From positions 9,019,135 to 9,083,134 of the forward strand of contig NC_049993.1 in assembly GCF_000003815.2 (NCBI RefSeq): a stretch of DNA of 64,000 bases, given 5' to 3'. A program made the position numbers and the translations under genes. The DNA is from Branchiostoma floridae (taxonomy: Eukaryota > Chordata > Leptocardii > Amphioxiformes > Branchiostomatidae). The notes under the pieces were generated by a model that did no database searches, was not told the origin of the DNA, and worked only from the letters and a program-made list of their open reading frames with translations. This document shows positions 314-54,766 of the stretch, in pieces (the first letter of the stretch is position 1; the number at the start of each line of letters is the position of its first letter).

Positions 314-19945
<19,632 letters not shown>

Positions 19946-29637: not shown

Positions 29638-30984
29638 TCATGACTTCTTCCCAGGCACCCATGATGAAGGTTGGAAGGTTCCTCCAGTACTGCTCTCATG
29701 CTCTGTATCTGGCTTCTCATAGGATGGGGCTGAAGCGTGTCCTGGCAGAGAGAATAGGTCAAAATTCTTAATTGAAAGAGCAATGAACTAAGTTAGTATT
29801 GGAATCGATAAAATGGTGAAACTATTTTTATAATTCTTTTTATATGACTACTTACCAGTGTGTACTTTAGGTGCTGGTCTTGCAACAAGGCCCTCTGAAA
29901 GTTAAAAAAAGGTATTTGTTAAACTTGAAAACCTTGAATCTGATACTATGCTCCCTAATATACAAAGCATCATGTTTGTCAACTTACTACAAAGCACAAA
30001 TCATAAAGGATAGTGTAAGAAGTAGATTGGCTTAAACTTAACATTATAGACAAATATGAGAAGTAAGCTAAGAGACCATCATATTCCTGCTGCTGTCTCT
30101 CCATGTCCCTCTCCTCCACCTCCTTCCCTCTTTGCTGTTTCAGCAGCATCATTTTCTCATTCTTCATGATCTCTGCATCTGTGGGAGGGTCCTTTCTCCT
30201 GCCACGGATCCAGGCTGGATAGAAGCAGAAACAAATACACACACATACATTCAGGCAATAGCTATGTACAGGAAAGAAGGTTTCAAATTATGAAAAGACA
30301 TGTTCTATCAGTTTTATTTGGATAATGTCTTTACTCCTTCATATGATATATCTACAATGTGATAGAGCTCTATTGTATGATAAGCGTACATGGTACAAAA
30401 TGATATTCCTTAATCATCACAACGTAACGCTCCAATCTTACAGTTCTAACTCGCTAGCTGTACCTTCCCATTCCAGTGGTATGTCTCCCAGCTCATAGTC
30501 CATGGTGGCTGTGGGGGACTCTGCCAGCCTCCGGCCCTTCCGTTTTCCTGATGAAAGTATCAAGTGTCTAAAATATAGATCCTATAGTGTGTTAATGTTT
30601 ATAATTATATACAGTATTTTAATGTAAATGAACTCTCTCCAAGTCAAACGGAATTGGTTTATTTTGTTGTTCTTTGACTCAACTGACTTTTGTCACCGAT
30701 GTTTACGTCATGTAAACATACTGCACATATTTAGCAGCCCTGTCTTACAAGAATATCCGTTTTGGGTTGTGTTGCGTAACGCTGTGTAAGTCCTAGCAGA
30801 CGAATTTGCCCCCCTCCCCACACGTCACAACTGAAAAACAAATGAACCTTTGGCTTTCCCCACCTTGCAAGAACTTACCTAATATGGTTGTGCGTTCCGG
30901 GATTTCATAGTACTTATTTCCGAGGTGATCTACTCCGACAAACTTTTTTGCGGGACCAATCAAAGCTCTTATTCTGTTAAACAT
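29638..30984 (-). CDS. NDUFAF2: Complex I assembly factor NDUFAF2 (mimitin / B17.2L)
   Basis: Exons on the minus strand: 30984-30879, 30547-30464, 30214-30077, 29894-29856, 29741-29638 (156 aa; human 169). Conserved segments: VGVDHLGNKYYEIPE; MDYELGDIPLEWEAWIRGRR; KDPPTDAEIMKNEK; and the C-terminal block GHASAPSYEKPD with TGGTFQPSSWVPGKKS. The protein is a mitochondrial paralogue of complex I subunit NDUFA12 and acts as an assembly chaperone. The third exon uses a weak donor, GATG|GTCTCT, but the frame and phase fit and the next exon joins correctly. It starts 248 bp from ERCC8 in head-to-head orientation, as in human. Confidence 0.92.
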
Positions 30985-31232
30985 CGTTCAGTGTGCATGT
31001 CGTACATCCGGGATATTGATTCTACAGGAAACCAAAAATCTCCGTTAACTGCAACCTGATTGGTCAGAATTATGGCCTTAGCCAATCAAAAATGTTTTAA
31101 GGTTAGAAATTGCATGTTGGGATGGCAATGGCGTTGTACGTGTGTGAATGATGCTGTCTTTGTTTCTTTTCGATTTTCCTCCGTTTCTCACCATTTTGGC
31201 TTGATTGTTAGTGATGTATTGCGTGTTCTGTG
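30985..31232. promoter_or_regulatory. Bidirectional promoter NDUFAF2 / ERCC8
   Basis: Only 248 bp separate the two start codons. Two CCAAT boxes in opposite orientations, GATTGGTCAG near 31058 and GCCAATCA at 31081, lie about 20 bp apart, a typical NF-Y arrangement in TATA-less bidirectional promoters. The shared promoter is inferred from geometry and these sites. Confidence 0.6.
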
Positions 31233-34200
31233 ATGCTGAACTTCCTGAGTTGTCGGGAGAATGGCACACTCGACCCGCTGGCGCTGGTTCGCGCCGAGAC
31301 GACCCGCCGAACCTTCAGCCTGGAGCTGAGCAAAGAACAGGACGTGAAGAGGATCCACGCGAGCGGCGCCAACTCACTGGACCTGGACCCGGCCGAGTCC
31401 AGATAGTGAGTATGGCCTAGGAAGGACTGTAAAAGTCTTAGTCTGGTAGCGTCCAATACAATGTAGTTGAAACTACGCTTTAAAACTATTTACCTGCATG
31501 TATGCAGGTATGGTTTTACGGGCGTGGGAAAATTTGGAAGCTGGGGATTTAGGGCGCTGTATCTCGAGAACGGATGGTGCGAGCACGACGATTTTTGGTA
31601 CGTGGGTTGGGGGTGGTGGCCTGACACTCAGGTTTGATTTTGGGCCTCCTGGCGTTTGAACTTGACATTGCAGGTGGCATTTTTGGTGTTTTGGGGGCAC
31701 TTTTGGCGCTGTGTGTCCGGAACGATACGCGCGATTGCAACGATTTTTGGTGCATGGGTGGGGGGTTGTTGCCTGTTGCCTAGGATTGACTTTGGGCCTT
31801 GCCGCGTTTGAACTTGACCCGGCAGGTCGAATTTTGTGTCCGGGAGGCAAAACTACCGAAGTCACGGGTTCCTCTCTCAGCACTCGGTGTCTAGTGCGGA
31901 AGGGGCCTTCCGCACTAGAAGTCTAGTGCCGACGTTACGTCCGCACTAGGTGTCCAGTGGTGAGTCGACTTCAGCACTGAAAACCCCCGATTCACCACTA
32001 GAAACCGAGTGCTGAGACTACCATCCGCACTAGAAAACGAGTGACGACAAATATTCCGCACTAGAAAACGAGTGACGACAAATATTCCGCACTTTGAAAC
32101 CGTGAGTGCTGACAGCCTGCCTCCGTTACGTTATTTACAGTTCCGGGCAGTTAAAGGTACACATATACAAATGTAATACATAAAAGAAGTGTAACAAAAC
32201 GTTCACCTTGAGCCTGAGAAAGCTGCGTATGGGAGGAAATATCCGTGTCGGGTTTTCAAAGAACAGTACATATCAATTATCTTTCTTATAAGTAGAACTG
32301 TCTAAACTGTCTGTAGCCGCCACGAATCAACAAATGATGCATGCGAACGATTGATTGAAAGTAGTCTGCAACTCAAACACGACAAAGGGAGCTGTAATTT
32401 ATTGGCATTTCATCTTCGTGAAATTTAGAAAAAGGGAACGAAGCTGACACACTGTTGACATGAGGTCATCATATACATAACACTATATACATGTAGGATG
32501 TAGCGTATGATACACACATGCTGTTTCGAGTTCCGACAGAGACAAGACTAGGGCAAAATTGATTTTAAATACTGAGTAAGTGACCGTCCGAAGGTGAGTA
32601 GGCGCTGCTGCATGTCAACTATGTGTTTGAGTAACGATTTGGACGCGAGCACTGGAAACCCAGTGCTAACGGTCTTAAAATGATAGTAGCACTCGGCTTC
32701 TAGTGCCGAAGTGGTCTTAGCACTCGGCCTCTAGTGCCGAAAAGTCACCGAGCACTAGAAATCCCAGTGCGGAACCCGTGACTTAGGTAGATCGGCACTC
32801 GGTTATCCAGTGCTCAAAGACCTCCGCACTGGGTAACCAGTGCTGAACGACCTTTGAACCACCCTTCCGCACTAGAAACCGAGTGCTGAGCGGAGATCAG
32901 CACTAGAAACCGAGTGCTGGACGGAGTTCGGCACTGGAAAACGAGTGCCGAGACAAGGTGTAGCTCTGGAATTCCAGTGCTGACGGGTCTTCAGCACTCG
33001 AACAAAGCCGTTCCGCACAGGAAATCCTGTGCGGAAGTTTCTTCCGTACTGGGCCCCGAGTGCCGACGCCAGTTTCTCCACGAATTCCGCACTGGGCGCC
33101 CAGTGCGGAACCCGTGACTTCGGTATACTTGCGTCCGGGAGGGGTATTTCCGGAGTTATGTCTTCTGAACGGTTGGTGCTGGCGCGATGATATTTGGCAC
33201 ATGTGTCGGCGATGGGTGAATAATTCTCAATTTTGATTTTGGCGCCCTTGGTGCTTGAACTTGACATTTTAGGTTACCTTTTGTGCGGGCACGGGGCGTG
33301 TGCTGTATCTCCGGAACGCAAGGTGCCATTGTGTTGCTATTTGGTACGTGAGTTGTTGGTGGTGTCCTGGTAGTGAGGTTTGATTTTGGGCCTCCTAGTG
33401 CTTGAACTTGATACTGTATAGGTTGACCCTGTTTTGGTGTGGTTGGGGCATCCCCCCAATATCTGCTTGGTTGCTGACGGTTGGGTTGGGTAGAACCATC
33501 ATCTGTTTTGGTTGATTGAGAGGTCTTTAAGTTTACACCTAGAACCATCATCTGGCCTGGGCCACCTTCAATGTATCAGGTTACTTTGTATCAACAGTGT
33601 CTGACCTGCCAGATGATATACTTAGTCTAGTATCTGTTGCTGTATTTGTTAGGTACAGTTTGAGTTTGCTTCTTAGTCCGAGTTTGTGGTGTTTTGAGAG
33701 CTGTGTAGTACTGGGTTTAATGTTCTGGTACAAGTTCCTTTACCCTGTTTGGCAATCAGCAGAAGATACAACTTTCTAAAGTGGAGGAGAACTGTATAGA
33801 GCTTGAGTGTAAGACAAAGGTATGTGTAAGATTTTTCCTGTTTCTTGTTGTTTCTTTGGGGATGCGATTTCCGTATTGTATGCAGGTAATTTGTAGTTTG
33901 GGGCTAGTCATATTTGCTTGATTTTTGGGCCTGCTTAATCTATAGTACAGGCAAGGTTAAGTGGTAGAGGCTTTGTTTTGTTTTAAATTTGGTATCGTTT
34001 GTTGCATTTTGTCACTGCAAAAATATGATGAAATTGTTTCCTCCTCTAAGCAGCTGCTCATTGATTTGGGGGGATGTTTGCTGGGTGTTCACTCTGACTA
34101 CGACAGCTTTCTGAACTTTTTAAAGTTGCCAGCAGCTTGCCATTTATGAATGGGATTGACAAGGACATTTTGAGTAGTAAATTCTGCTGTAAAATTTGGC

Positions 34201-37200
34201 TTAGGTACTTCAGGAGATTTAGGTTTTAGTTGGACGGATTGAACAAAATATCATACCACCCTAATGCTGCTGGATGGGGCCTACCACTATTCATATTGTC
34301 TATGGAACTACTGTAAAAATATAATTTTTCAAATTATGCAAATAACCTTCCAGTGTCAAGTGATATAACACTCCAGAAATAAATCTTTAATGAATATCAT
34401 TGGTACAATAAGGAGATTTAGCAGCTGCATTAGGTCAGTACATTGAAATAGGAAGATATCAGTACTGAATATATCATATGTGACAGAACAACTACATGGG
34501 CCATCTGACTCTGAGACCAAAAAAGGTAGGAAAAGTCGTCTCAATAACTTTAAGGTACTGTGGTTGGTTACATGCTTAAGAAATCCAAAATAATTAATGT
34601 TCATCCATGCCCAAACTTACACATTCTGAAAATGGAATTTCAGACTTTTGCATGGTGCACAACCAACACGGTAAAAATACGCAACCAGGGACGAAAAGGA
34701 AAAAAAATACACAATAGGTCTACAGACACCTAATACATTTCATGCAGGCCTGAGGTCTACGAACTCTTGTTCATAATGTGTGTGATCTCGAACTCCAAGC
34801 AGATGTAACGTTTTCGTCCAGCTGGGTTTCTTGTCAACCTCACCACACGCTTGGGGGGCTGTCAGAGAAGCCACCTGCAGTTCAAAAAGCTTCATACCTT
34901 TCACCTTAACATCTGCTTGGTGGTTTTATATTTTCGTTGATAACTAGGGGAAAAAATTAAAATCGCAGAAGTTTGACCAAGTGACATCCAACATGATGAT
35001 CAGACCTTTTTTCTGAGAAATCGGGTTAGAATCCAAAAGTTTCATCTTGTGTGTTATTTATAAATAGAGCTTGCGTGCAAACTAAGAAATACATGTTACT
35101 AAAGTGATACAGTCTGATATTTCTGTATAAAAATATTAAGATGAATAGGTTGAAACTAAAGTTTGTACGTTTTGTTCCAGTCTGTTATCCGGAGGTGCAG
35201 ATGGAGTGATTGCTGTTTATGACACCCACAACCTGTCAGGCACACCCAGCAGTACTGCTGAGGCTGTCTGTACAGTAGGAAGGTATGTCCCTCTTTATAA
35301 CCATTACAAAACATACACATTTACAGTTCCAAGTACACATGTGTAGTGACAGATATTTGGGGTGATATGTCAAAGCTGAAGACCTCTTACTTGTTAACTA
35401 ACAGTTTGCATAATAATGCATAGGCATGTCCTGTTTATGTCTCAGATGCCTTCACAACAGGGCTCTAGCCAGCTCGACATTTTTTTTCGTCAGCCAATTC
35501 CCATTGTCGCGAAAACACTATTCCAGGAGTAAGAGAGACTGAACTGAGACTTTGAAATCGGGTTTTAATGAGATTATCGTATGCGAAAGGGCACCGACAC
35601 ACATTGTCAACAATCATAACAATAGCAAAACAAACAGTGTGTGGCTTTTACGGCCGTGGTCGGCGTCCCCAAGCAGCCTGTAGCTTCCACCAAGGAGCTT
35701 TTATCAGATTTTGTCTGTCAAAGTTGACGGATTGGTTTTAAAATTTTTCCGTCACACGCAGCAAATTTCCGTCAATTGACGGAAAAACGGACACTGGCTA
35801 GAGCCCTGCTTCACCATGACAAATATAATACCAATACCAGTAATTCTTGTCACTGCACATGCACACTTTGAATTGTGAGCTTGCTTGCTGCTAAAAATAC
35901 CTTAAGGTATAACACCTGTCCAGTTTTGTACAGCAAGTACAAGCTCTGTAACTTGTAAGCCCAGACTGATGTGATAGGTCTTATCCACCCACACTGGGGT
36001 GGACCTATTTTGTGACACACCACCTTTCATTGTGAACAGTTTTATCAGAAAAATACATTGTATAGCCTAATCTCCAAGCAGACCAAATCATCTCACAGGG
36101 ATTGCTGCCATTTGCTGGTCAAGACTATGTCCTACTACCATGCCACAGAAGGGCATACTCTTGGCTGGCAATTTTGCCACTGGAAGATCTGCTTGTCAAG
36201 GAACATTATGATTTTCCCTGCTTTGAGATAAGCCACCACTCTCTCCCTCCCCCCAGGTCCCACCGCCATGTGCACAAGTACAGTGTGGAGACAGTCCGCT
36301 GGTACCCACACGACACCGGGCTGTTTACATCCAGCTCCATGGACAAGACACTGAAGGTGTGGGACACCAATGCCCTGCTGCCTGCCGAGGTCTTCCAGTT
36401 CGAGGGCACGGTGTACTCACACGCCATGTCTCCTGTAGCCAAGAAACACTGCCTCATCGCAGGTGGGTTAAAGTTACATATTGCCTTAGTAACCTCTGCT
36501 TCGTCTGGTTAGTTTGAACAAGTTGAGCTTCTCTAGAGCATGATGTTTCAGCCTAATTCATGTAACACGTACATCATGTAAGTGGCTTTTGTGTCATGTT
36601 ATGTGGCGACAAAGGAATTGACCATTATACTTACATTTTCATACATTATTGGCACATTGATAATACCTCAAAGATGTATCCTTAAAAGTTAGATGCCTAG
36701 TTGGTGGTGTGTTTTTCTCTAATCATTGAAGCAATTTTTTTCATCCCCAGTTGCTACCATGACCTCCATTGTGACCCTATGTGATCTGAAGTCTGGGTCA
36801 TCCACACACATACTGAAGGGTAGGTCCTTTTTTTACATGAATGGAATTGCTATGTGATATGCAGGTATAGATGATACCATTATGATAACTTTGCACATTG
36901 TAGCTATATGATGATAAGTACCCGCATCCCTTGCTTTCCTTCCTAGACCCTGTCGTGGTCTAGGTGCAGGTAGACATCAGAAGTCAGATTTATTTGTAAA
37001 ACATCGCAGCCTATAGTATAGGCTACACAACTTCAATTTTACATTAACTAACCTATACATACATGTGGTATTTGAGCCCTGACCGTGCATAGGTTTTGTT
37101 GAGAGTGTCAGTATTATTAGTATCATATCTTTTCTGTATCCAGGTCACCGAGCAGCGGTGAAGTGTGCCCGCTGGTCTCCCAGGAACCCGTACCTGCTGG

Positions 37201-40200
37201 CCACGGGCAGCCAGGACAACAAGGTACTGCTGTGGGACGTGCGGAGTGCCAAGAGCAGCCTCATGTCACTGGACCAGCACAATGGGGAGCTGGCAACCAG
37301 CACTGCGGCAGGTCAGTAGGTCAGGGGTCACCAGGTCAGGGGTCACGAGGTCAGGTGTTAGTGCTGTTAGCCTCATGTCACTGGACCAGCACAATGGGGA
37401 GCTGGCAACCAGCACTGCGGCAGGTCAGTAGGTGAGGGGTGACCAGGTCAGGGGTCACGAGGTCAGGTGTTAGTGCTGTTAGCCTCATGTCACTGGGCCA
37501 GCACAATGGGGAGCTGGCAACCAGCACCGCAGCAGGTCACGAGGTCAGGGGTCACGAGGTCAGGTGTTAGTGCTGTTAGCCTCATGTCACTGGACCAGCA
37601 CAATGGGGAGCTGGCAACCAGCACCGCAGCAGGTCAGTAAGTCAGGGGTCACGAGGTCAGGGGTCACAAGGTCAGTTGTTAGTACTGTTAGCCTCATGTC
37701 ACTGGACCAGCACAATGGGGAGCTGGCAACCAGCACTGCCGCAGGTCAGTAGATCAGGGGTCACGAGGTCATCTGTTAGTAGTGTTAGTACAATAGCAGC
37801 CTCATGTAACTCGCAATGCATCCTGTCTTATCTTGGACTGTTCTCCTACCTCTAGGTAGGGTTCTTTAAAGAATACCATGCCAGGATATGCAAGACTTTC
37901 GTGTGTGTGGAAGGGTCTTAGATCTTCTCTCTGGCTTCTCTATGCATGCATGTTACTATTTATGTGTTGATCTATGCTGATTCACAACACATGTTACAAT
38001 ACTGTTAATAGTAGTGTCAAAATGTACTCTATCAATGAAGACATCCTTTCCTCATTTCTACAGTGAACACTGCCCATAACGGCCATGTGAACGGTTTGTG
38101 CTTCACACCTGAGGGGCTCCACCTCCTGAGCTTTGGCACTGACCACCGGCTCAGACTGTGGGACACGGCTACTGGCAGGAACACACTGGTCAGTGGCATG
38201 GGCACCCCTTCATGTAGAGCTTTGCTTGAGCTAAACTAGTATAGTAGTGCATTTCTCTACTATCTAAGCATTTTCTGTGACGAAGTCTATTTTTATGAGA
38301 CACTCCTGTATTTTTCTTGATCTATGTTTCCCAAAGGTAAAAGTTTGAAACATAATGTTTTTGCTGGTGTGTTCTTCTTTTTTTTCTTCTGTCATAAACC
38401 AATCAGAACTTAGTATAGCTAGTGACATTAGCATATTAGCTGTTACAGCAAATATGAACAATTACAGGATTGCAATAGCAAAACCTGTATCGGTAATTAC
38501 AGGTTTGTGATAGGAAAACCTGTGAAAGGCAAATTACTTGGAGGGAAACATCCTGCATTTTCTCGAAAATGTCACCTTTCCAGCTTTCTTTTAGATTCTA
38601 GTATTAGTAAGTGTAAAGTAGAAATGTCAAGTCACATTGGTCATGAGCCTGGGTATGTTTCCTAGTCACCACATTGAATGATATATTTTGTAGTTTTTAT
38701 GAAAAGTGGATTGAATCAGACACCAACAGATAGAATCCCGTTCAAACATTATTTTTGTCCATACCCAATACAAGGGTTTTACATGTTCAGACTTTTAAAC
38801 ATATACATAGATACAGGTACACACTTTTCCTCTATAGGTAACTACGGGAAATCTGCAATGATAGTAAGAAGTCTGTTCAGTTCACGTTCTCGCGTGCNNN
38901 NNNNNNNNNNNNNNNNNNNNNNNNNNNNNNNNNNNNNNNNNNNNNNNNNNNNNNNNNNNNNNNNNNNNNNNNNNNNNNNNNNNNNNNNNNNNNNNNNATG
39001 TTCGACTTTTAACATATCTAGATACAGGTCACACTTTTCCTCTATAGGTGAACTACGGGAAAATCTGCAATGATAGTAAGAAGTCTGTTCAGTTCACGGT
39101 CTCGCGTGGCTCGTCCCCTGACGTGGTGTTCGTTCCGGACGACAGTTCCATCGCGATGTTTGACGTGTTCGGCGGGACCAGTCTACACCGGTTGGTGGGG
39201 CACTACAACTACGTGCAATGCTGTGTCTTCAACCCTGATACTCAGGTACAAAGCTACTTAAACCGTTAAACCATCCCCTTGCTGCCTTACTTAATAACCA
39301 CTAGAGAAATGTTTTTTTAGGGATCAGCCAATACCTACAGGTCACTGAGCTCTGTTGAATATGATAGATCTAAAGAATTTGTGTTGCATCTTGCCTTGTA
39401 ATCAATGAATATGGCCAAACATCCGTAACTTAATATGTTTGCTTTAGTTTTTCTTAAATTTTCTGACAACTACGTGCAATGTTGTGTCTTCAACCCTGAT
39501 ACTCAGGTACCACTGATTCCTTCAAAGGAAAACTCTGGGAATGTCTAGGTGACCCTTAAGCATACACTCACCCTGACCTCTTGCTGTAGATATTGTTGTT
39601 GATGACTATTGTAGATACTATGTCGGCTATCTTGTACCATGTATGTATAAAAGTTCTTTTATTGGTGTACTTAGAATATTGTTATTGATAAGTATCCTGT
39701 CCTTGTCCAATTTTGTTTTGTGTGGCAAGGGTTTTAGAACTGTAATCAATTTTAGTTCTTTTCAAATTTCCTGACAATTTTCTTTATTTTGAGCCCAGCA
39801 AACTACTTTGTTATGTTACATGTACTGTTTGTTCTACTGCAGGAGCTGTACAGCGGGGGGAGTGACAGTAATATCCTGGTGTGGGTGTCTGATCTGTGAC
39901 ATGTTTATTGTACTGTACCTGTATTTTCTACTGCAGGAGCTGTACAGCGGGGGGAGTGACAGTAATATCCTGGTGTGGGTGCCTGATCTGTAACATGTTT
40001 ATTGTACTGTACCTGTATTTTCTACTGCAGGAGCTGTACAGCGGGGGGAGTGACAGTAATATCCTGGTGTGGGTGCCAGATCTGTAACATGTTTATTGTA
40101 CTGTACCTGTATTTTCTACTGCAGGAGCTGTACAGCGGGGGGAGTGACAGTAACTTACTGGTGTGGGTGCCTGATCTGGGTCATGTTTATTGTACTGTAC

Positions 40201-41547
40201 CTGTATTTTCTACTGCAGGAGCTGTACAGCGGGGGGAGTGACAGTAACTTACTGGTGTGGGTGCCTGATCTGGGTCATGTTTATTGTACTGTACCTGTAT
40301 TTTCTACTGCAGGAGCTGTACAGTGGGGGGAGTGACAGTAATATCCTGGTGTGGGTGCCTGATCTGTAACATGTTTATTGTACTGTACCTGTATTTTCTA
40401 CTGCAGGAGCTGTACAGTGGGGGGAGTGACAGTAACTTACTGGTGTGGGTGCCTGATCTGGGTCATGTTTATTGTACTGTACCTGTATTTTCTACTGCAG
40501 GAGCTGTACAGCGGGGGGAGTGACAGTAACTTACTGGTGTGGGTGCCTGATCTGGGTCATGTTTATTGTACTGTACCTGTATTTTCTACTGCAGGAGCTG
40601 TACAGTGGGGGGAGTGACAGTAATATCCTGGTGTGGGTGTCTGATCTGTAACATGTTTATTGTACTGTACCTGTATTTTCTACTGCAGGAGCTGTACAGT
40701 GGGGGGAGTGACAGTAACTTACTGGTGTGGGTGCCTGATCTGGGTCATGTTTATTGTACTGTACCTGTATTTTCTACTGCAGGAGCTGTACAGTGGGGGG
40801 AGTGACAGTAACTTACTGGTGTGGGTGCCTGATCTGGGTCATGTTTATTGTACTGTACCTGTATTTTCTACTGCAGGAGCTGTACAGTGGGGGGAGTGAC
40901 AGTAACATCCTGGTGTGGGTGCCAGATCTGGGTCATGTTTATTGTACTGTACCTGTATTTTCTACTGCAGGAGCTGTACAGTGGGGGGAGTGACAGTAAC
41001 TTACTGGTGTGGGTGCCTGATCTGGGTCATGTTTATTGTACTGTACCTGTATTTTCTACTGCAGGAGCTGTACAGTGGGGGGAGTGACAGTAACATCCTG
41101 GTGTGGGTGCCAGATCTGGGCAGGGGGGAGGATTATGAAGAGTCCAAAAAACAGGTTAAGATTCTACTTTCAAAGCCCTTTCAAAAAGTCTGCATTCAAT
41201 TTTTGAAAGCTCACTAAGTTCTACATCTTCACTCATGATGTATGTGAATTCAGATATGATCCTCCTTGATTGTATGTCTGTTATGTTTAGGATATTATTC
41301 TTCACCGGAGATGTATAGTGCCTCAAATGTTTTGGTGTAATGTATTTAAGAGACACAATAAGAAATGCCATGTCACAGTGGATTTTTAAATCTCAGCAAA
41401 AAGTATATACATGTATTCGTGTGTGACTTCCATGTGAGATGTTAAACAAACTTTTTTCATTCTCTTGTTTTGTAGAAAGCAGAGCCAAGCCAGAGAAGCC
41501 AGAATCTCCAGGCATATCAGGACACATGGAGCAGTGATGAGGATTGA
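31233..41547 (+). CDS. ERCC8: ERCC8 / CSA, WD40 subunit of the transcription-coupled repair ubiquitin ligase
   Basis: Exons: 31233-31405, 35181-35282, 36257-36462, 36751-36819, 37144-37311, 38064-38188, 39048-39245, 41065-41154, 41476-41547 (400 aa; human 396). The start [20 protein letters not shown], then [91 protein letters not shown] and the acidic end DTWSSDED match CSA throughout. CSA is a seven-bladed WD40 protein that links DDB1-CUL4 ligase to stalled RNA polymerase II and CSB in the nucleus. Oddities: the end of exon 5 is repeated about five times into the intron; the end of exon 7 is copied once; and exon 8 is preceded by 13 tandem 94-bp copies of its acceptor and coding start. Only the last copy has the donor and keeps the frame. 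Confidence 0.93.
31550..31850 (+). repeat. Diverged tandem units of about 155 bp, left group
   Basis: Two units at about 31550-31700 and 31711-31840 share an ACGATTTTTGGT core, a GTGG(G)TTG stretch and TTTGGGCC...CGTTTGAACTTGAC. Related units lie at 33150-33420, on the other side of the hairpin field. Similar core wording recurs in the 45.4-46.5 kb and 58-62 kb repeats. Confidence 0.6.
31853..33126. repeat. Hairpin-repeat field bounded by an inverted repeat
   Basis: The edges carry ACCGAAGTCACGGGTTC (about 31855) and its near complement GAACCCGTGACTTCGGT (about 33108), with a third copy near 32767. Inside are clusters at 31880-32110 and 32640-33110 of short hairpin motifs such as GCACTAGAAACCGAGTGC, recurring every 25-45 bp with changing loops. 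The middle, 32110-32640, is ordinary AT-rich sequence. No ORF is supported. It lies in ERCC8 intron 1 and is probably a transposon with palindromic subterminal repeats, but I cannot name a family. Confidence 0.7.
33150..33420 (+). repeat. Diverged tandem units of about 155 bp, right group
   Basis: Two further units related to those at 31550-31840, each with a TATTTGGYAC core and GATTTTGGGCC/GGCGCCC...GTGCTTGAACTTGA. They suggest the hairpin field was inserted into, or grew within, a pre-existing tandem repeat. Confidence 0.55.
33421..35180 (+). other. Rest of ERCC8 intron 1
   Basis: About 1.75 kb of AT-rich sequence. Short frames exist (for example 33961-34149) but none shows a domain or splice support. 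I see no gene. Confidence 0.5.
35458..35808. mobile_element. hAT-type MITE, CAGGGCTCTAGCCAG ends
   Basis: Perfect 15-bp inverted ends, CAGGGCTCTAGCCAG and CTGGCTAGAGCCCTG, are flanked by an 8-bp target duplication with one mismatch (CTTCACAA at 35450-35457, CTTCACCA at 35809-35816). CAGGG-type ends and 8 bp are typical of hAT. The 351-bp body has no transposase and contains repeated CCGTCA/TTGACGG words. It lies in ERCC8 intron 2. Confidence 0.88.
37257..37800 (+). repeat. Tandem array copying the 3' end of ERCC8 exon 5 and its donor
   Basis: Units of 112 bp start at 37257 (the real exon end), 37369, 37481, 37578 and 37690; the third unit is 15 bp shorter, and a decayed sixth start lies near 37796. 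Each carries the coding segment [19 protein letters not shown] plus the donor GCAG|GTCAG; copy three has GTCACG instead. The spacer is built from GGTCAGGGGTCAC words. Using any later donor would read through GGT CAG TAG, an immediate stop, so only the first donor gives full-length protein. Confidence 0.9.
38797..39110 (+). repeat. Duplicated sequence on both sides of a gap
   Basis: The left copy, about 38780-38897, and the right copy, about 38998-39110, are the same intron-exon junction of ERCC8 exon 7. The left copy carries single-base indels that break the frame. The 100-N gap separates them, so this is more likely an assembly redundancy than a real duplication. The right copy is used in the gene model. 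Confidence 0.7.
38898..38997. other. Assembly gap, 100 N
   Basis: A 100-N placeholder between two near-identical copies of the ERCC8 exon 7 acceptor region. Confidence 0.95.
39466..39511 (+). repeat. Partial duplicate of the ERCC8 exon 7 end
   Basis: Repeats the last 41 bases of exon 7 (39205-39245) and its donor, with about two changes; it encodes [13 protein letters not shown] followed by GTAC. No acceptor of its own is obvious, so it is probably silent intron sequence. Confidence 0.85.
39834..41125 (+). repeat. 14-copy, 94-bp tandem array containing ERCC8 exon 8 acceptor and coding start
   Basis: The exon-start G of GAGCTGTACAG recurs at 39843 and then every 94 bp to 41065, fourteen copies with no change of period. 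Each copy has the tract TTTTCTACTGCAG and the code [18 protein letters not shown] (or NL). Copies differ at four places: CGGGG/TGGGG, AATATCC/AACTTAC/AACATCC, TCT/CCT/CCA, and TGTGAC/TGTAAC/GGGTC. Copies 1, 2, 3, 6 and 9 stop right after DL. The GGGTC copies read on and stop in the next unit, because 94 is not a multiple of three. Only copy 14 continues to the donor at 41155. Copy 12 is its closest relative. Confidence 0.96.
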
Positions 41548-47374: not shown

Positions 47375-50209
47375 ATGGCCATGTTGGTAAAGGCGGCTCT
47401 GGCCTTTGTGGCGGTGGCGGCTCTCATAGCGTACTACTGTCACGAGCCCGTTCCACAGGACATTGCGCAACCCGGGTTCTTTGCAACACAGGGAATAACT
47501 TTCCGAACAGTTCACCACATGGTAATTTCACCAATTTCACTAATTTTTCACCACTGTGTTTTGATCAGATTTGTCGCACGATCAGAAAGGAATATTGGTA
47601 TAGCCGTACACATATCTTGTAGAATGTCAGCCGTGTTAATTGATACAAAAAAAGTTGTCTTTAATACTTGTCGGTTTCGTCATAACTTGCTTGAAAATGC
47701 TACATCAATAAAGATCGTACGTAGCTGACGACAAAAGCGGCAAGGCCGTCATTCTATCTGTACAGGAGACAAATGCGTTTCGTTTTTAAAAGCTGTGAAT
47801 ATTTTTTTAAAGACGTTTAGAGAATTACCTGTAGATTCAGCACACGCAAATCTCAGTGAGACTGTGCAAAAAAAAACATTAATATTTTTTTTTGATAAGA
47901 ATTCCACATAAAACTGATAACAAAATTATTGTTGTGTTAGATAGGTAATTCATAAGGTATATGACAAATTCAATGTATGTATATTCAAATTTGTAACGTT
48001 TTGGCGTCATTTTTTTAGGCTAAATTTGGAGAATATATCGGCATAGGTACCGAGCCTGCGAACCTCCGCTACATCATGGAGGAGATGATGAGGGCAGCTC
48101 GGGAAAAGAAAGGCAACTACCGAGAGGGACTGAAGTGTACGGACACCACGTTTGACGGGGTCAGGGTCCGCGTGTACGAGCCAGTGTCGGCGGGAGAGAG
48201 CAGCGGCACACGGCCAGGCTTAGTGTACATCCATGGAGGCGGCTGGGTTGTTTTTAGTGTCGGTAAGGCGCCCTTTCCACTAGACGGCGATCGCGCTGCG
48301 ATCTCACTGCGACCTAAATAGGATACTCACTCACACTGGGTATATCATGCAAACGTAAAAGTGTGAATGAGAAGACAACAAAACACAGAAAAGTGTGAAA
48401 ATATTCGATTCTTTACTATACAATTCGTTGAGCGCTATGAAAATTTTAGGTCGCAGGGAGAGCGCGACGAGAGTGCCTTCCTAGTGGAAAGGAGGTATTA
48501 GACCCATTTTCCAAGCAGACATAAGAATCCGACTCAGTCTCAGCGTTTTACAAGAACTTTTGCAACATTACGCCTTTCTAGTAGTGCACCTTTATCTCTT
48601 CGCCGGCTATGAAATGTACTAGATGTTGCAAAAACACACGTAAAACACAGATTCTTACACGAAGACAGGTTCAACATGAAATACACGAAAAACAACTGCC
48701 ATAGCCTGACATAAAATGTCCCAATCTTTACCTTTTTCACTACTGTTAAGTTAAGAAGTACAAATGTATGTTGTTGTTTTCAGATGTCTATGATCATCTG
48801 ACAGCTCATCTTGCTAAACAACTAGGGGTGGTCGTTGTGTCAGTGGAGTGAGTATACTTTGGTGTGTTTTTTTTTTTGGCGAAGCGCCAGGGTCGGGGTT
48901 GTATCCTATGAGATTAGCTTTTCAAGTACATGTATTCTGAAATGTTTCTCTATAACCGTTACATTCCCTATAAATCTGTTTTTTGTTTGCTCGTTCGCTT
49001 GTGTCACACTACAATAGATGTGGTAATTCTTCAATATATTACTTATATTCTAACTGGTATGTTTTAGGGAATTCTTTAATTTCATTTTCGATTAATGAAG
49101 TTTCCAGTTAGAAATTGTCTCATTACACTAACCATAATCTATTACAACATTTACGAATCGAAATCTACATTTTATGCTACTTTCAGCACACAGAGCTAAA
49201 TCTTTGTTCCGATACAAATAAGCGAATCGAATTTCGAATGCCCTTTGGAATTGTCTTCCTTGGTATTAAAGACACCAATGATCTAGATCACGTGACCGTA
49301 CGTACTGGTGACGTCAGCAAGTGATCAAAAGTTCCAGGAAGTTTGTTCTGGCCGCCATCTCTATAACGTCAAGGTCGGTGTACTCTAATGTAGATGGCAT
49401 CCTTGATTCCCCTCATCATTATTCAGTATCTAAAAAAAGTATCTTTCATATCACCTCACAGGTACAGACTCGCTCCTGAGCACAAATTTCCGGCGGCTTT
49501 CGACGACAGCGTTTCCGCCACAAGGTTCTTCCTCCAGAACGCAGAGAAGTACAACGTTGATCGCACCCGAATCGGCATCAGTGGGGACAGCGCAGGGGGC
49601 AACCTGGCCGCAGCCGTCACTCTCGCGCTAGCTAAAGAAAAGGGACTTCCTAAGTTAAAGACACAGGCCCTTATTTATCCAATCGTGCAAGCCATCGACT
49701 TTAACACGCCTTCCTACTCAGACCATGGCCACTTGAATACTTTAAGCAAAGATGTAATGGTGGCATGTTGGCTATGGTATCTAAATAATGACCAGTCACT
49801 TAAGGCCGTGTTCAAAACCAACAACCACACAAGCGACCAGCTGAAGAAATCTCAGTATTTCGGGTACGTGGATACCAAAATGCAACCAAAAGTGGTCATT
49901 AAGAAGGAAAACATGAAATTTCCTGACATTCCTAACATCGCTGCCATCTTAGATCCACGTTTGGCGCCTTTGATGGCAGATGACGCTGATCTGAAAGGTC
50001 TCCCACCGACGTACGTGATGACGTGTGAGTATGACGTGTTGAAGGACGAAGGTGTAATGTACGTCACACGACTGGAGAGGGCTGGGGTTAAAGTCGAACA
50101 TGATCATTATGAACGCGGCTTCCACGGCTTGTTAAACCATTTTGATGTTTATGAGTTAGGAGGCACTGCCATGGAAAAATATGTCATGTATCTAAAGAAG
50201 GCTCTATGA
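47375..50209 (+). CDS. Arylacetamide deacetylase / neutral cholesterol ester hydrolase-like serine hydrolase
   Basis: Exons 47375-47521, 48019-48262, 48784-48847 and 49462-50209 give 400 aa (human AADAC 399, NCEH1 408). The N-terminus MAMLVKAALAFVAVAALIAY is a signal anchor followed by YCHEPVP, as in AADAC, so a type II ER membrane protein with a lumenal catalytic domain is expected. HGGGW (about 121) forms the oxyanion hole of the hormone-sensitive-lipase family. The triad is Ser195 in GDSAGG, Asp343 in CEYDVLKDE and His373 in GFHGLLN. YRLAPEHKFP, RIGISGDSAGG and LDPRLAPLMADD are also family blocks. It should hydrolyse lipid or xenobiotic esters. AADAC and NCEH1 are not separable from sequence alone here. 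Confidence 0.92.
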
Positions 50210-51002: not shown

Positions 51003-54000
51003 TTATATCATATTTCTAAGAATACATTCTGATTTGAAAATTTTCAGAATGATTTCTGCATCTTGACATAGTGAATTCGGGGATGACACTGTAGACTTAT
51101 ATTTTACAATGGATAGTTTCGCAACTAGCAGCAGTTCATTGATGTGCCGAAACTTGTTTAACATATGAGGGTTGTATCCAAAAATAATGTCATGTACAGT
51201 GAGAGATATGGAATAACTAAACAAACTTTCCACATAATCCCATAATGGTTTAACAATTTTACAGTCAAAGAAAAAATGCTCTATATATTCTATAATATCG
51301 CAAAAAATACACTTATTATTTTCTACAATTCTCATCTTATGCAACAATATTTTGGTCGGATAAATATTATGCAAGATCTTCCATTGCAAACTAATAAGTT
51401 TGGGTTCTTTAGTGGTCAAGAAGGGAGATTTCGATAGTACATGCCAAGAAATGGAACGAAAATCGTACATAGGAAATCGTTTCTCCCAGAAATTCTGTGA
51501 GACTGGGACTGCTTGGTATTGCATGATACAGAAATTCTTAAAGAAGCTAGAGTCTAGTAAGCGGATGTCTTTACCACAAAGTTTGATACTAGGAGATTCT
51601 TCGTTGTCTAATCGAGAAACACCTTTCCATTGTTTGGGAATTGAATTGATTAAAGCATGATACTGTAGTAATACATGTGCATCATTACCAACAATAGCTT
51701 TTACATCATCAAAAGATATAAAGTTACCCTGATCATCCACAATATCATTTACATAAAGAATATGTCGTCTAATCCATTTCTTAAAATAAAGCATGTTGCC
51801 CTTGTAACTTATACAAGCATTGTTCCATAACAATTGCCAATTTACTTGATTTACTTCAATATCATTGACATTCTGTACAGGTTTCATTTCATACCAAGTA
51901 AGTATGAGTTTACGGTAATAGAGAGGTAAGGGCAACAGTGAATCTTTAGATGACACATGGACTGCCGAGCAGTTATGTCTCAATATACAAAGATCAGGTC
52001 CTAACTTCTTAAAATAATACAGTTGTATCTTCTTCCATGTAGGAGTAGGAGTTTCACTACCGGATAACAATTTTTTTTATCGATCGTAATAAACAACATT
52101 TGTGCATTATTCTTATATCTATCATTTTCAATCCTCCCTGTGAATAGTCTTGAACCATCACATTACGCTTTACTCTATCTCTTTTCCAGATAAATCTGTA
52201 AAACATCAAATTAACATCCTTTAAGAAGCTATCCGGTGGTATAAGTGCACCAAAACTGTAAGACAGTTGTGAAGCTACAAGGTTTTTGAGCACTGTTATT
52301 TTTCCTATAAGACTAAGGTTGCGTGAAGCCCAAGATAATAAAATGTTTTTCATCTTACAGTATTTTTTGCTCCAATTTACTTCTACTTCAGAGGCACAAC
52401 ATGCAGATGAGAAAACAATCCCTAAACATTTTGCTGTGGTGCACCATTTTAGCCCACTAGCTTGTTCAGAGCAGTGTCTCCAAGGGCCTAGCCACATGGC
52501 TACTGTTTTTTCTTTATTCAAAACTAGACCAGAAAAAACGGAAAAATGTCTAATAATATCTAAACTTCTATCAATAGAAATTTTGTCACCAAGTATCAGT
52601 TCAGTATCATCTGCATATTGAAAAATTCGAGATTCAACATCGGAGTCGCTAAGCCCAGATAATGTAATACCTTTGATTTCGGAAGACTGGCGGACTTTAA
52701 GAGCAAAGAGCTCTGTGGCTAGAATAAACAGAAGAGAAGACAGGGGACATCCTTGACGTACACCTCTTCCCAGGTCAAACCATTCAGAGATATGACCACA
52801 ATGATTGATACAACTACGGGCATTATTAGTGTATACCTTTACCCACTGAACAAAATCTGAACCGAAATTGAACTTTTCAAGAACTTTTATAATGAGGTCT
52901 TTGGAAATAGTATCAAAAGCTTTGCTGTAATCTAAGAAGAGAATGGCACCTGGAACATTAGAATCTCTAGTAAAGCAAATTATGTCATCTATGGCTCGTA
53001 TGTTATTCAAAATACTACGTCCCTTGATATATCCAACTTGGTCTGGTCCAACAATGTGAGAAATAATGTTCTGTAATCTATTTGCTAATATCTTTGCACC
53101 TATTTTGTAATCCGTATTTGTGATTGAGATAGGTCGCCAGTTAGACAGCTGGTCTCTACTTAAATCTTGGTGTTCACCCCCTTTAAAGAGTAAGGATATA
53201 ACCCCTTTACGTTGAGTGGAAGAAAGCTGGTTCTTCGTGTAGCCCTCATTTAGTGAGTTCAAAACCATAGATCCTATTCTGCTCCAAAAGACTTTATAAA
53301 AGTCAGTAGTAAGGCCATCTAGGCCGGGACTGCAATTTGTCATGTTACGTAGAGCAGATGTACATTCCGTCATAGTAAACAACCCTTCACAAGATTTACT
53401 TTGCATGTCAGACAACGTCGGAAAATTTACGTCTGTAATAAAGTCATCAAAGCTTTCTATGTCGAAATCGTCGTTTTTACTGTATAGTTTTCTATAGTAA
53501 TCGACTTGTTGTTCCAATAATTTATTTTGATCTGTTATTATGTGACCGTCAGGTGTTCTGAGGCTTGTAATAACATTGTGTATGGCACGTGACTTCTCAA
53601 GTCGAAGAAAGTAGGCTGTGTTTTTTTCTCCTTCCTCAATCCATTTAACTTTTGAGCGGATTTGTGCACCACGCGCCTCGTGAAGGGCTAATGCTTCAAA
53701 CTCAGCCTTTGTGTTGTGCACCTGTTGCTGTAATGTTAAATTCTTTGGATCGGAAGCTAATTGTTTTTCCAGCCGTTCTAATTTTTCATCAATTATGTTG
53801 TGTTTGGATCGTTTTTCAAGAGCCTTTTGTTTCCCGTAACTAATTGAGAAAGATTTTATCTTACTCTTACAGATGTCCCATATTAACTGTTTATCTTCGA
53901 TCACAGAGTCACTAAGGCCTTCTTGGATGTTTCCTATGATTTCATTAACACGATCAACAAACACCTTATCTTTTAGAAATGAATTATTGAATTTCCAATA

Positions 54001-54738
54001 TGAAGGTCCTTTGTCAAACTGTGTTACAGACATATCCAATACAACAGCTCTATGATCACTGCAGGGGAAAGAGATGATTTCACATGCAGTAGTTTTATCA
54101 AACAAAAAGTCATTAATCAGGAGATAATCTAGTCTCCTGGCTGTAAAAGGGTTTCTCTTAGACCATGTGTAATCCTTGTCTTCACTATGGAAGACTCTCC
54201 AGATGTCAAGTAGTTCAAGGTTGTCAGTCAAATTATTAAAACATTTAACCTCTGCTTTATCATGCTCTTTCCCTGCTACATTGTCGAGATCACGATTGAG
54301 TACTGTATTGAAATCACCAGCTAACATAAAATATTCACCGTCACAACAATGTTCTTGCAGTTGAGTTAGAACCTGTTTGTAGAACAGTTTCTTACTCACT
54401 ACATTGTTAGGAGCATATACATTGAAACAAACAAATTTCTCACCATGGTGTATGAATTTTATACCAATGACCCTCTCAGATATATCTATAAATTCCACAT
54501 TTTTAATGTTGGAACCTTTAGATATCAAAATAACTTGTCCTTTGCTATGACAGGTACCAGGGTGTGCGTAAAGCATCCCTCCCCATTCTGTCTTCCATGT
54601 CTCTATATCAGCACTGCTGATGTAAGTTTCTTGCATAAAAGCAATGTCTATCTTCTTATCTTTAAGGTATTGAAAAACAGTTCGCCGTACCGTTCGTTTC
54701 CTTAAGCCTCGCGTGTTGATGGTGAGTAGTCGAACCAT
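51003..54738 (-). pseudogene. LINE ORF2: endonuclease and reverse transcriptase, one frameshift
   Basis: Frame one, 54738-52057 (893 aa), starts MVRLLTINTRGL. It has the APE endonuclease residues (QETYI, GDFNTVLNRDLD, RRLDYLL, SDHRAVVL) and reverse transcriptase blocks (WRPISI, LDYSKAFDTI, GCPLSSLLF, YADD near residue 706). Frame two, 52070-51003 (355 aa), holds the C-terminal part with the zinc-binding CIFC...EHFFFDC motif. The frames meet at an 8-A run (T run 52071-52078), so a one-base indel or sequencing error there splits one protein of about 1240 aa. The WLGPW...KCLGI block and CCHC end favour the Tx1/L1 group. Confidence 0.9.
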
Positions 54739-54766
54739 GGGTGTTGATGGAAGATAGACCTAAGTC

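Follow-up and report, generated by a model that had tools for sequence, protein, structure and literature searches.

How does a gene yield its correct product when the start of one of its exons, acceptor included, stands fourteen times in a row? Exon 8 of the ERCC8 gene of the amphioxus Branchiostoma floridae raises this question within the 64,000-nt stretch of DNA analysed here, which we call the window (contig NC_049993.1, positions 9,019,135 to 9,083,134). In-silico splicing of the plus strand places the gene at window positions 31233-41547 and joins nine coding exons into a protein of 400 amino acids, with AG and GT present at all eight introns. The protein matches human ERCC-8 in the PDB over residues 1-399 (E = 1.4e-154), which identifies the gene product as CSA, and its 97% identity over the full length to the ERCC8 protein of B. 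lanceolatum marks the gene as cephalochordate. The B. lanceolatum protein gives the same 400-residue reading with a single, ordinary exon 8.

The surroundings of the gene can be described briefly. A putative NDUFAF2-like gene on the minus strand (30793-30987 and 29982-30287) would lie head to head with ERCC8, its start some 250 bp away. Its first exon has a weak NDUFA12-family match below the cut-off (E = 0.0074); neither exon has a Pfam match at E 0.001, and neither has a match in the PDB. The human ERCC8/NDUFAF2 pair is arranged head to head. ERCC8 intron 1 holds 30-31-bp repeats with CACT...GAGTG cores (31996-32093 and 32795-32952; Tandem Repeats Finder) that have the look of a dispersed element. 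Elsewhere in the window lie a LINE-like retroelement with endonuclease, reverse transcriptase and zf-RVT matches (51006-54759, minus strand), an alpha/beta hydrolase coding stretch (49394-50206, plus strand), and PAN, immunoglobulin and fibronectin type III domains in the coding stretches 473-991, 2352-2768 and 3078-3569, all on the plus strand.

The repeated exon edge is highly regular. Tandem Repeats Finder reports a single array of period 94 with 13.8 copies, 95% matches and 0% indels (Table 1), and an exact string search places 14 exon 8 starts (AG/GAGCTGTACAG, the slash marking the splice boundary) at 39843, 39937 and onwards to 41065, with all 13 spacings exactly 94 bp. Three core words of the array were absent from the rest of the window on either strand in the same kind of search. 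Each unit consists of about 37 nt of intron, including the acceptor, and about 57 nt of the start of exon 8. The intron part of copies 2-14 ends in TTTTCTACTGCAG, and these 13 of the 14 copies agree at all 37 intronic bases preceding the exon; copy 1, the sole divergent one, departs further upstream and keeps TTCTACTGCAG. CTGCAG stands at every one of the 14 acceptors, which are pyrimidine-rich by eye. Exon 8 itself is 90 nt long with phase 0 at both ends, and copy 14 alone runs on into GGCAGGGGGGAGG and the donor CAG/GTTAAG. Purines make up 79% of the 33 nt unique to this copy and 61% of the part that it shares with the others. In blastn, copies 12 and 14 show no difference over 116 nt, from -60 to +56 of the acceptor. 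In this one assembly the copy at one edge of the array is identical to an inner copy, and copy 1 at the other edge has a divergent intron part, a mixed picture as to whether edge copies of a mirage escape homogenisation. An earlier note, written from the sequence alone, had described fourteen starts with a strict spacing of 94 bp, of which the final one alone has the donor and the remainder of the exon, had called the array a minisatellite born from an exon edge and had named copies 12 and 14 as sisters; all of this is borne out.

Duplication of exon edges is a property of the gene more widely. When each ERCC8 exon with 60-nt flanks was compared with the whole window by blastn (E up to 1e-4), partial copies were found for exons 5, 7 and 8 only, all on the plus strand and all including an exon edge; outside these duplicated edges no ERCC8 exon matched elsewhere in the window. 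Four of the 16 internal exon edges are thus duplicated, in both polarities, two of them as regular arrays (the exon 5 donor and the exon 8 acceptor). The five exon 5 copies follow one another in steps of 112, 112, 97 and 112, each with CAG/GTCA, and on the sequence the real donor is the first, exon-attached copy. Exon 7 has one extra visible copy at each edge. The additional donor-edge copy lies 261 bp downstream of the original, its CAG ending at 39506; among the duplicated edges, four in all, this is the weakest case. The two visible acceptor-edge copies are separated by a 100-N assembly gap (38898-38997), one of three in the window; since the gap falls exactly there, arrays of this kind may break or distort assembly.

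Table 1. Features of the ERCC8 locus (window positions) and exon-edge arrays in randomly sampled 10-kb pieces of the same genome (piece:positions).
Feature	Position	Strand	Basis
ERCC8 exon 1, coding part	31233-31405	+	in-silico splicing; CSA match
ERCC8 exon 2	35181-35282	+	in-silico splicing
ERCC8 exon 3	36257-36462	+	in-silico splicing
ERCC8 exon 4	36751-36819	+	in-silico splicing
ERCC8 exon 5	37144-37311	+	in-silico splicing
Donor-edge array of exon 5, final 55 nt of the exon and its donor in five copies	37257-37788	+	blastn, Tandem Repeats Finder
ERCC8 exon 6	38064-38188	+	in-silico splicing
Exon 7 acceptor edge, two visible copies (38783-38896 and 38998-39108; 92%)	38783-39108	+	blastn
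ERCC8 exon 7	39048-39245	+	in-silico splicing
Exon 7 donor-edge copy, last 41 nt and 4 nt of intron, CAG/GTAC	39466-39510	+	blastn
Exon 8 acceptor-edge array, 94-bp unit, 14 copies	39821-41120	+	Tandem Repeats Finder, string search
ERCC8 exon 8, sole copy with donor (CAG/GTTAAG)	41065-41154	+	in-silico splicing
ERCC8 exon 9, end of coding sequence	41476-41547	+	in-silico splicing
Kelch-type exon, donor-edge array, 51-bp unit, 41 units	L003:4730-6922 (contig 2)		homology support
RANBP9/10-type SPRY exon, six copies of a 37-bp donor-edge unit	L007:4579-4946		homology support
ATP6V1C exon, three copies of a donor-edge unit of ~110 bp	L018:2400-2786		homology support
NTR-domain exon, six acceptor copies of 60 bp	L017:1517-1990		E 2.4e-4, just under family cut-off
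Exon-edge array, probable mirage	L015:8857-9460		open frame and splice signals only
Exon-edge array, probable mirage	L025:9479-10000		open frame and splice signals only

This class of array is already known in amphioxus, and ERCC8 is a striking further case. Tandem duplications of exon-intron boundaries, termed mirages, are described in the accessible text of a study of the globin genes BflGb6 and BflGb9, which traces the term to work on Adh3 and states that regular splicing, as the Adh3 data and RT-PCR of the globins suggest, is not interfered with (PMC3087553); the accessible part of another report adds PGBD5 and troponin C (PMC3902484). The ERCC8 units of exons 8 and 5 likewise straddle the exon-intron boundary and carry splice signals (CTGCAG in 14 of 14 copies, CAG/GTCA in five of five), both exon ends are affected, here within one gene, and the published cases, presumably in the same genus, have units of tens to ~160 bp in the text available. 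ERCC8 differs in its copy number, 14 with a strictly constant period where the globin and PGBD5 genes have 2-7 as far as these are given there, in having four duplicated edges in one gene, and in a three-unit higher-order pattern. VCBP3 introns contain complete or partial exons, some with splice sites (PMC2632668, accessible portion); these resemble the adjacent exons and are in this respect similar to the intronic partial copies of ERCC8, whereas that portion of the description has no regular minisatellite arrays. Our literature search, which covered few subscription papers, found no published account of ERCC8 in amphioxus; the one paper matching both words is a transcriptome study of a salamander infected with an iridovirus. 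In the same search no genome-wide survey of exon-edge arrays was recognised by title or abstract among the matches listed.

Two other known arrangements were considered and rejected. Mutually exclusive or tandemly duplicated exons also present repeated coding sequence with acceptors, but the extra exon 8 copies are not complete exons, because the donor of the exon, the one donor considered here, lies beyond them and only copy 14 reaches it. Recursive, zero-length-exon splice sites likewise place serial acceptors in an intron, but all 14 copies read AG/GAG, with no donor GT after the acceptor.

By our reading of its protein, another ERCC8 model of B. lanceolatum (P0002) lacks the start of exon 7: exon 6 connects directly to mid-exon 7, the frame is shifted, and exon 8 is read in a different frame. 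Such a form may be genuine or may reflect an error of the model close to a repeat; it is possibly the trace of an exon 7 mirage in B. lanceolatum too. Given this departure in exon 7, alternative ERCC8 forms may exist.

The consequences of using the wrong copy were followed by computational joining of exon 7 to every exon 8 acceptor, 14 in all. Acceptor 14 gives the 400-residue protein, and all 13 upstream acceptors lead to a premature stop: five give 365 amino acids, with the stop right after the repeated exon part, and eight give 385, with the stop in the next unit. The copies encode ...(I/L)LVWV(P/S)DL, and the 365- and 385-residue forms would lose the tail of CSA after VPDL. The claims that the copies stop after VPDL or in the following unit, and that correct CSA needs all 13 upstream acceptors to be skipped, thus hold. 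A stop more than 50-55 nt before the last exon junction is the usual signature of targets of nonsense-mediated decay. The 13 premature stops lie 70-1,258 nt 5' of that junction, and by this rule all 13 RNAs would be decay targets. At the other duplicated edges, splicing from any downstream donor of exon 5, of which there are four, runs into a stop two codons beyond the first one (241 amino acids), and reading past the first exon 7 donor meets a premature stop before the second.

With the anatomy of the array, the identity of competing sites 12 and 14 and the reading-frame outcomes established, the choice of acceptor can be considered. As acceptors 12 and 14 are indistinguishable from -60 to +56, the choice between them must come from farther away. 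Exon definition would be the simplest explanation: the splicing machinery would define exons as acceptor-donor pairs, so that the copy attached to the exon body is used. Acceptor 14 would be selected by the nearest donor, 90 nt downstream, together with the purine-rich unique 33 nt of exon 8, and by the mirror logic the first of the five exon 5 donors would have to be used. Such duplications would be tolerated because the pairing picks the copy still attached to the exon body, and the few mis-spliced ERCC8 RNAs would be degraded. The extra exon 8 copies are most likely simply ignored by the cell, and the array would be without selected function. Our preferred reading is, then, that the ERCC8 arrays are amphioxus mirages in which the exon-attached copy is chosen through exon definition and which serve no selected function; we give this a probability of about three in four.

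The array would have grown by unequal exchange or slippage, and the order of its units suggests how. Six of 54 exonic columns vary among the copies, giving nine unit types including that of the real copy (12 and 14 share the same exonic part), and over copies 4-12 the order of types is AAB repeated, a three-copy period. The observed similarity at lag 3 was reached in 43 of 5,000 shuffles, and those at lags 1 and 2 in 1,548 and 1,737 (three lags tested, uncorrected). Expansion in three-unit blocks would fit this order better than growth from the 3' side, which the earlier note had favoured and which we have set aside as the less well supported.

How common such arrays are was estimated from a random sample of the same genome (assembly of 513.4 Mb in 431 contigs). 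With a fixed seed, 160 pieces of 10 kb were defined in the first 14.9 Mb of contigs 1-19 (17-35 Mb each), and 28 of them, in list order, supplied 265,232 non-N bases. At a period of at least 30 and a score of at least 100 these contained 22 arrays, of which six were classed as mirages by our own reading, with no blind rule: four at exons with homology support and two with an open frame and splice signals only (Table 1). For the NTR exon the PDB match, to Netrin-1, is not significant (E 0.54), and the exons of the last two, in pieces L015 and L025, have no family or PDB match. The Kelch array has as its unit the last ~47 nt of the exon with the donor, in frame; 12 copies carry GTAAGT, the exon-attached copy has GTGAGT, and the 17-aa repeat stays open for ten further copies. 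The frame of the L015 array is open through the second copy, and both cases argue against a universal rule of decay. The Kelch mirage could amount to the lengthening of a protein.

The other arrays were not counted as mirages. Three are low-complexity sequences with the lowest entropy (L003:346, L012:1185, L023:465); three have open frames that mark them as coding repeats in frame (L018:9162, L019:3893, L019:1017); one of period 297 has an ankyrin-repeat look by eye from the DNA (L006:9344); and one, also judged by eye, adjoins an apparent acceptor with units that lack one (L020:5646). For the other eight the verdict came from the consensus unit only, and the number of mirages could therefore be an underestimate. 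A kinase-family search of the same genome gave 129 matches, most of them covering almost the entire domain, and so could not serve to count mirages per exon.

The sample corresponds to 22.6 mirages per Mb (95% interval 8.3-49.2), or ~11,600 genome-wide (4,300-25,300); the four homology-supported cases only give 7,700 (2,100-19,800). This suggests thousands of mirages in the B. floridae genome, and that exon-edge arrays are not strongly purged. The bolder statement, that such arrays are a pervasive state of the amphioxus genome, present at thousands of exon edges and above the expectation of uniform duplication, we regard as doubtful. The related proposal that exon edges are hot spots, where something linked to transcription or splicing (R-loops, for instance) seeds tandem duplications more often, is in our view unlikely. 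Six mirages among 22 random arrays and four duplicated edges of 16 in ERCC8 would accord with it, and a hand estimate gives ~2.1 mirages as the uniform expectation for the 19 arrays left when those of low complexity are set aside. This estimate assumes a density of ~0.9 coding-exon edges per kb. With ~2.1 expected, any enrichment is at most modest; the excess is small and depends on that density and on our own classing, ERCC8 is not a random pick, and uniform duplication with tolerance nearly suffices.

The exon 8 array might alternatively be a regulatory splicing decoy, its upstream acceptors being used at a set rate to give unproductive RNA, so that the level of CSA falls with copy number. 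The stops upstream of the last junction from 13 of 13 alternative acceptors agree with such a role, as does the identity of the 37 intronic bases in 13 of the 14 copies, but this identity is equally expected from homogenisation, and the presence of such copies at both kinds of edge in unrelated genes points to a general mutational process. We consider a decoy quite improbable. It is very unlikely that one or few copies were inflated by mis-assembly: the gap between the exon 7 acceptor copies would suit an artefact, as would the accessible statements that PGBD5 arrays vary between assemblies (PMC3902484) and that the draft had one of the globin arrays wrongly assembled (PMC3087553), but nine unit types in a three-unit pattern are not uniform copies (the copy number may still be off), and the PGBD5 repeats were, in the same accessible text, upheld by new sequence data (PMC3902484). 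The suggestion of the earlier note that the array tunes or diversifies the C-terminus of CSA, with truncated proteins that keep the propeller and lose only the tail (the propeller end being our reading) made and used, is unsupported and highly improbable, given stops at least 70 nt before the last junction in all 13 cases, a far C-terminus conserved with human AFEDAWSSSD, which suggests that the full tail matters, a full form with an ordinary exon 8 in B. lanceolatum, and copies at other edges and in unrelated genes.

Read as tolerated mirages, the ERCC8 arrays offer a natural experiment, in that acceptors 12 and 14 are identical over 116 nt and, on the anatomy, only one is expected to be used; this makes it directly testable which influences beyond the local sequence of a splice site decide its choice. 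If the sampled rate holds, mirages would stand at thousands of amphioxus exon edges, with a bearing on gene annotation, assembly quality and intron gain by tandem duplication. Should the arrays prove to be a pervasive state of the genome, above the uniform expectation, this would imply that the duplications arise by a mechanism coupled to splice sites or to transcription, and the amphioxus genome would hold a constant stock of sequence from which new exons and introns could form.
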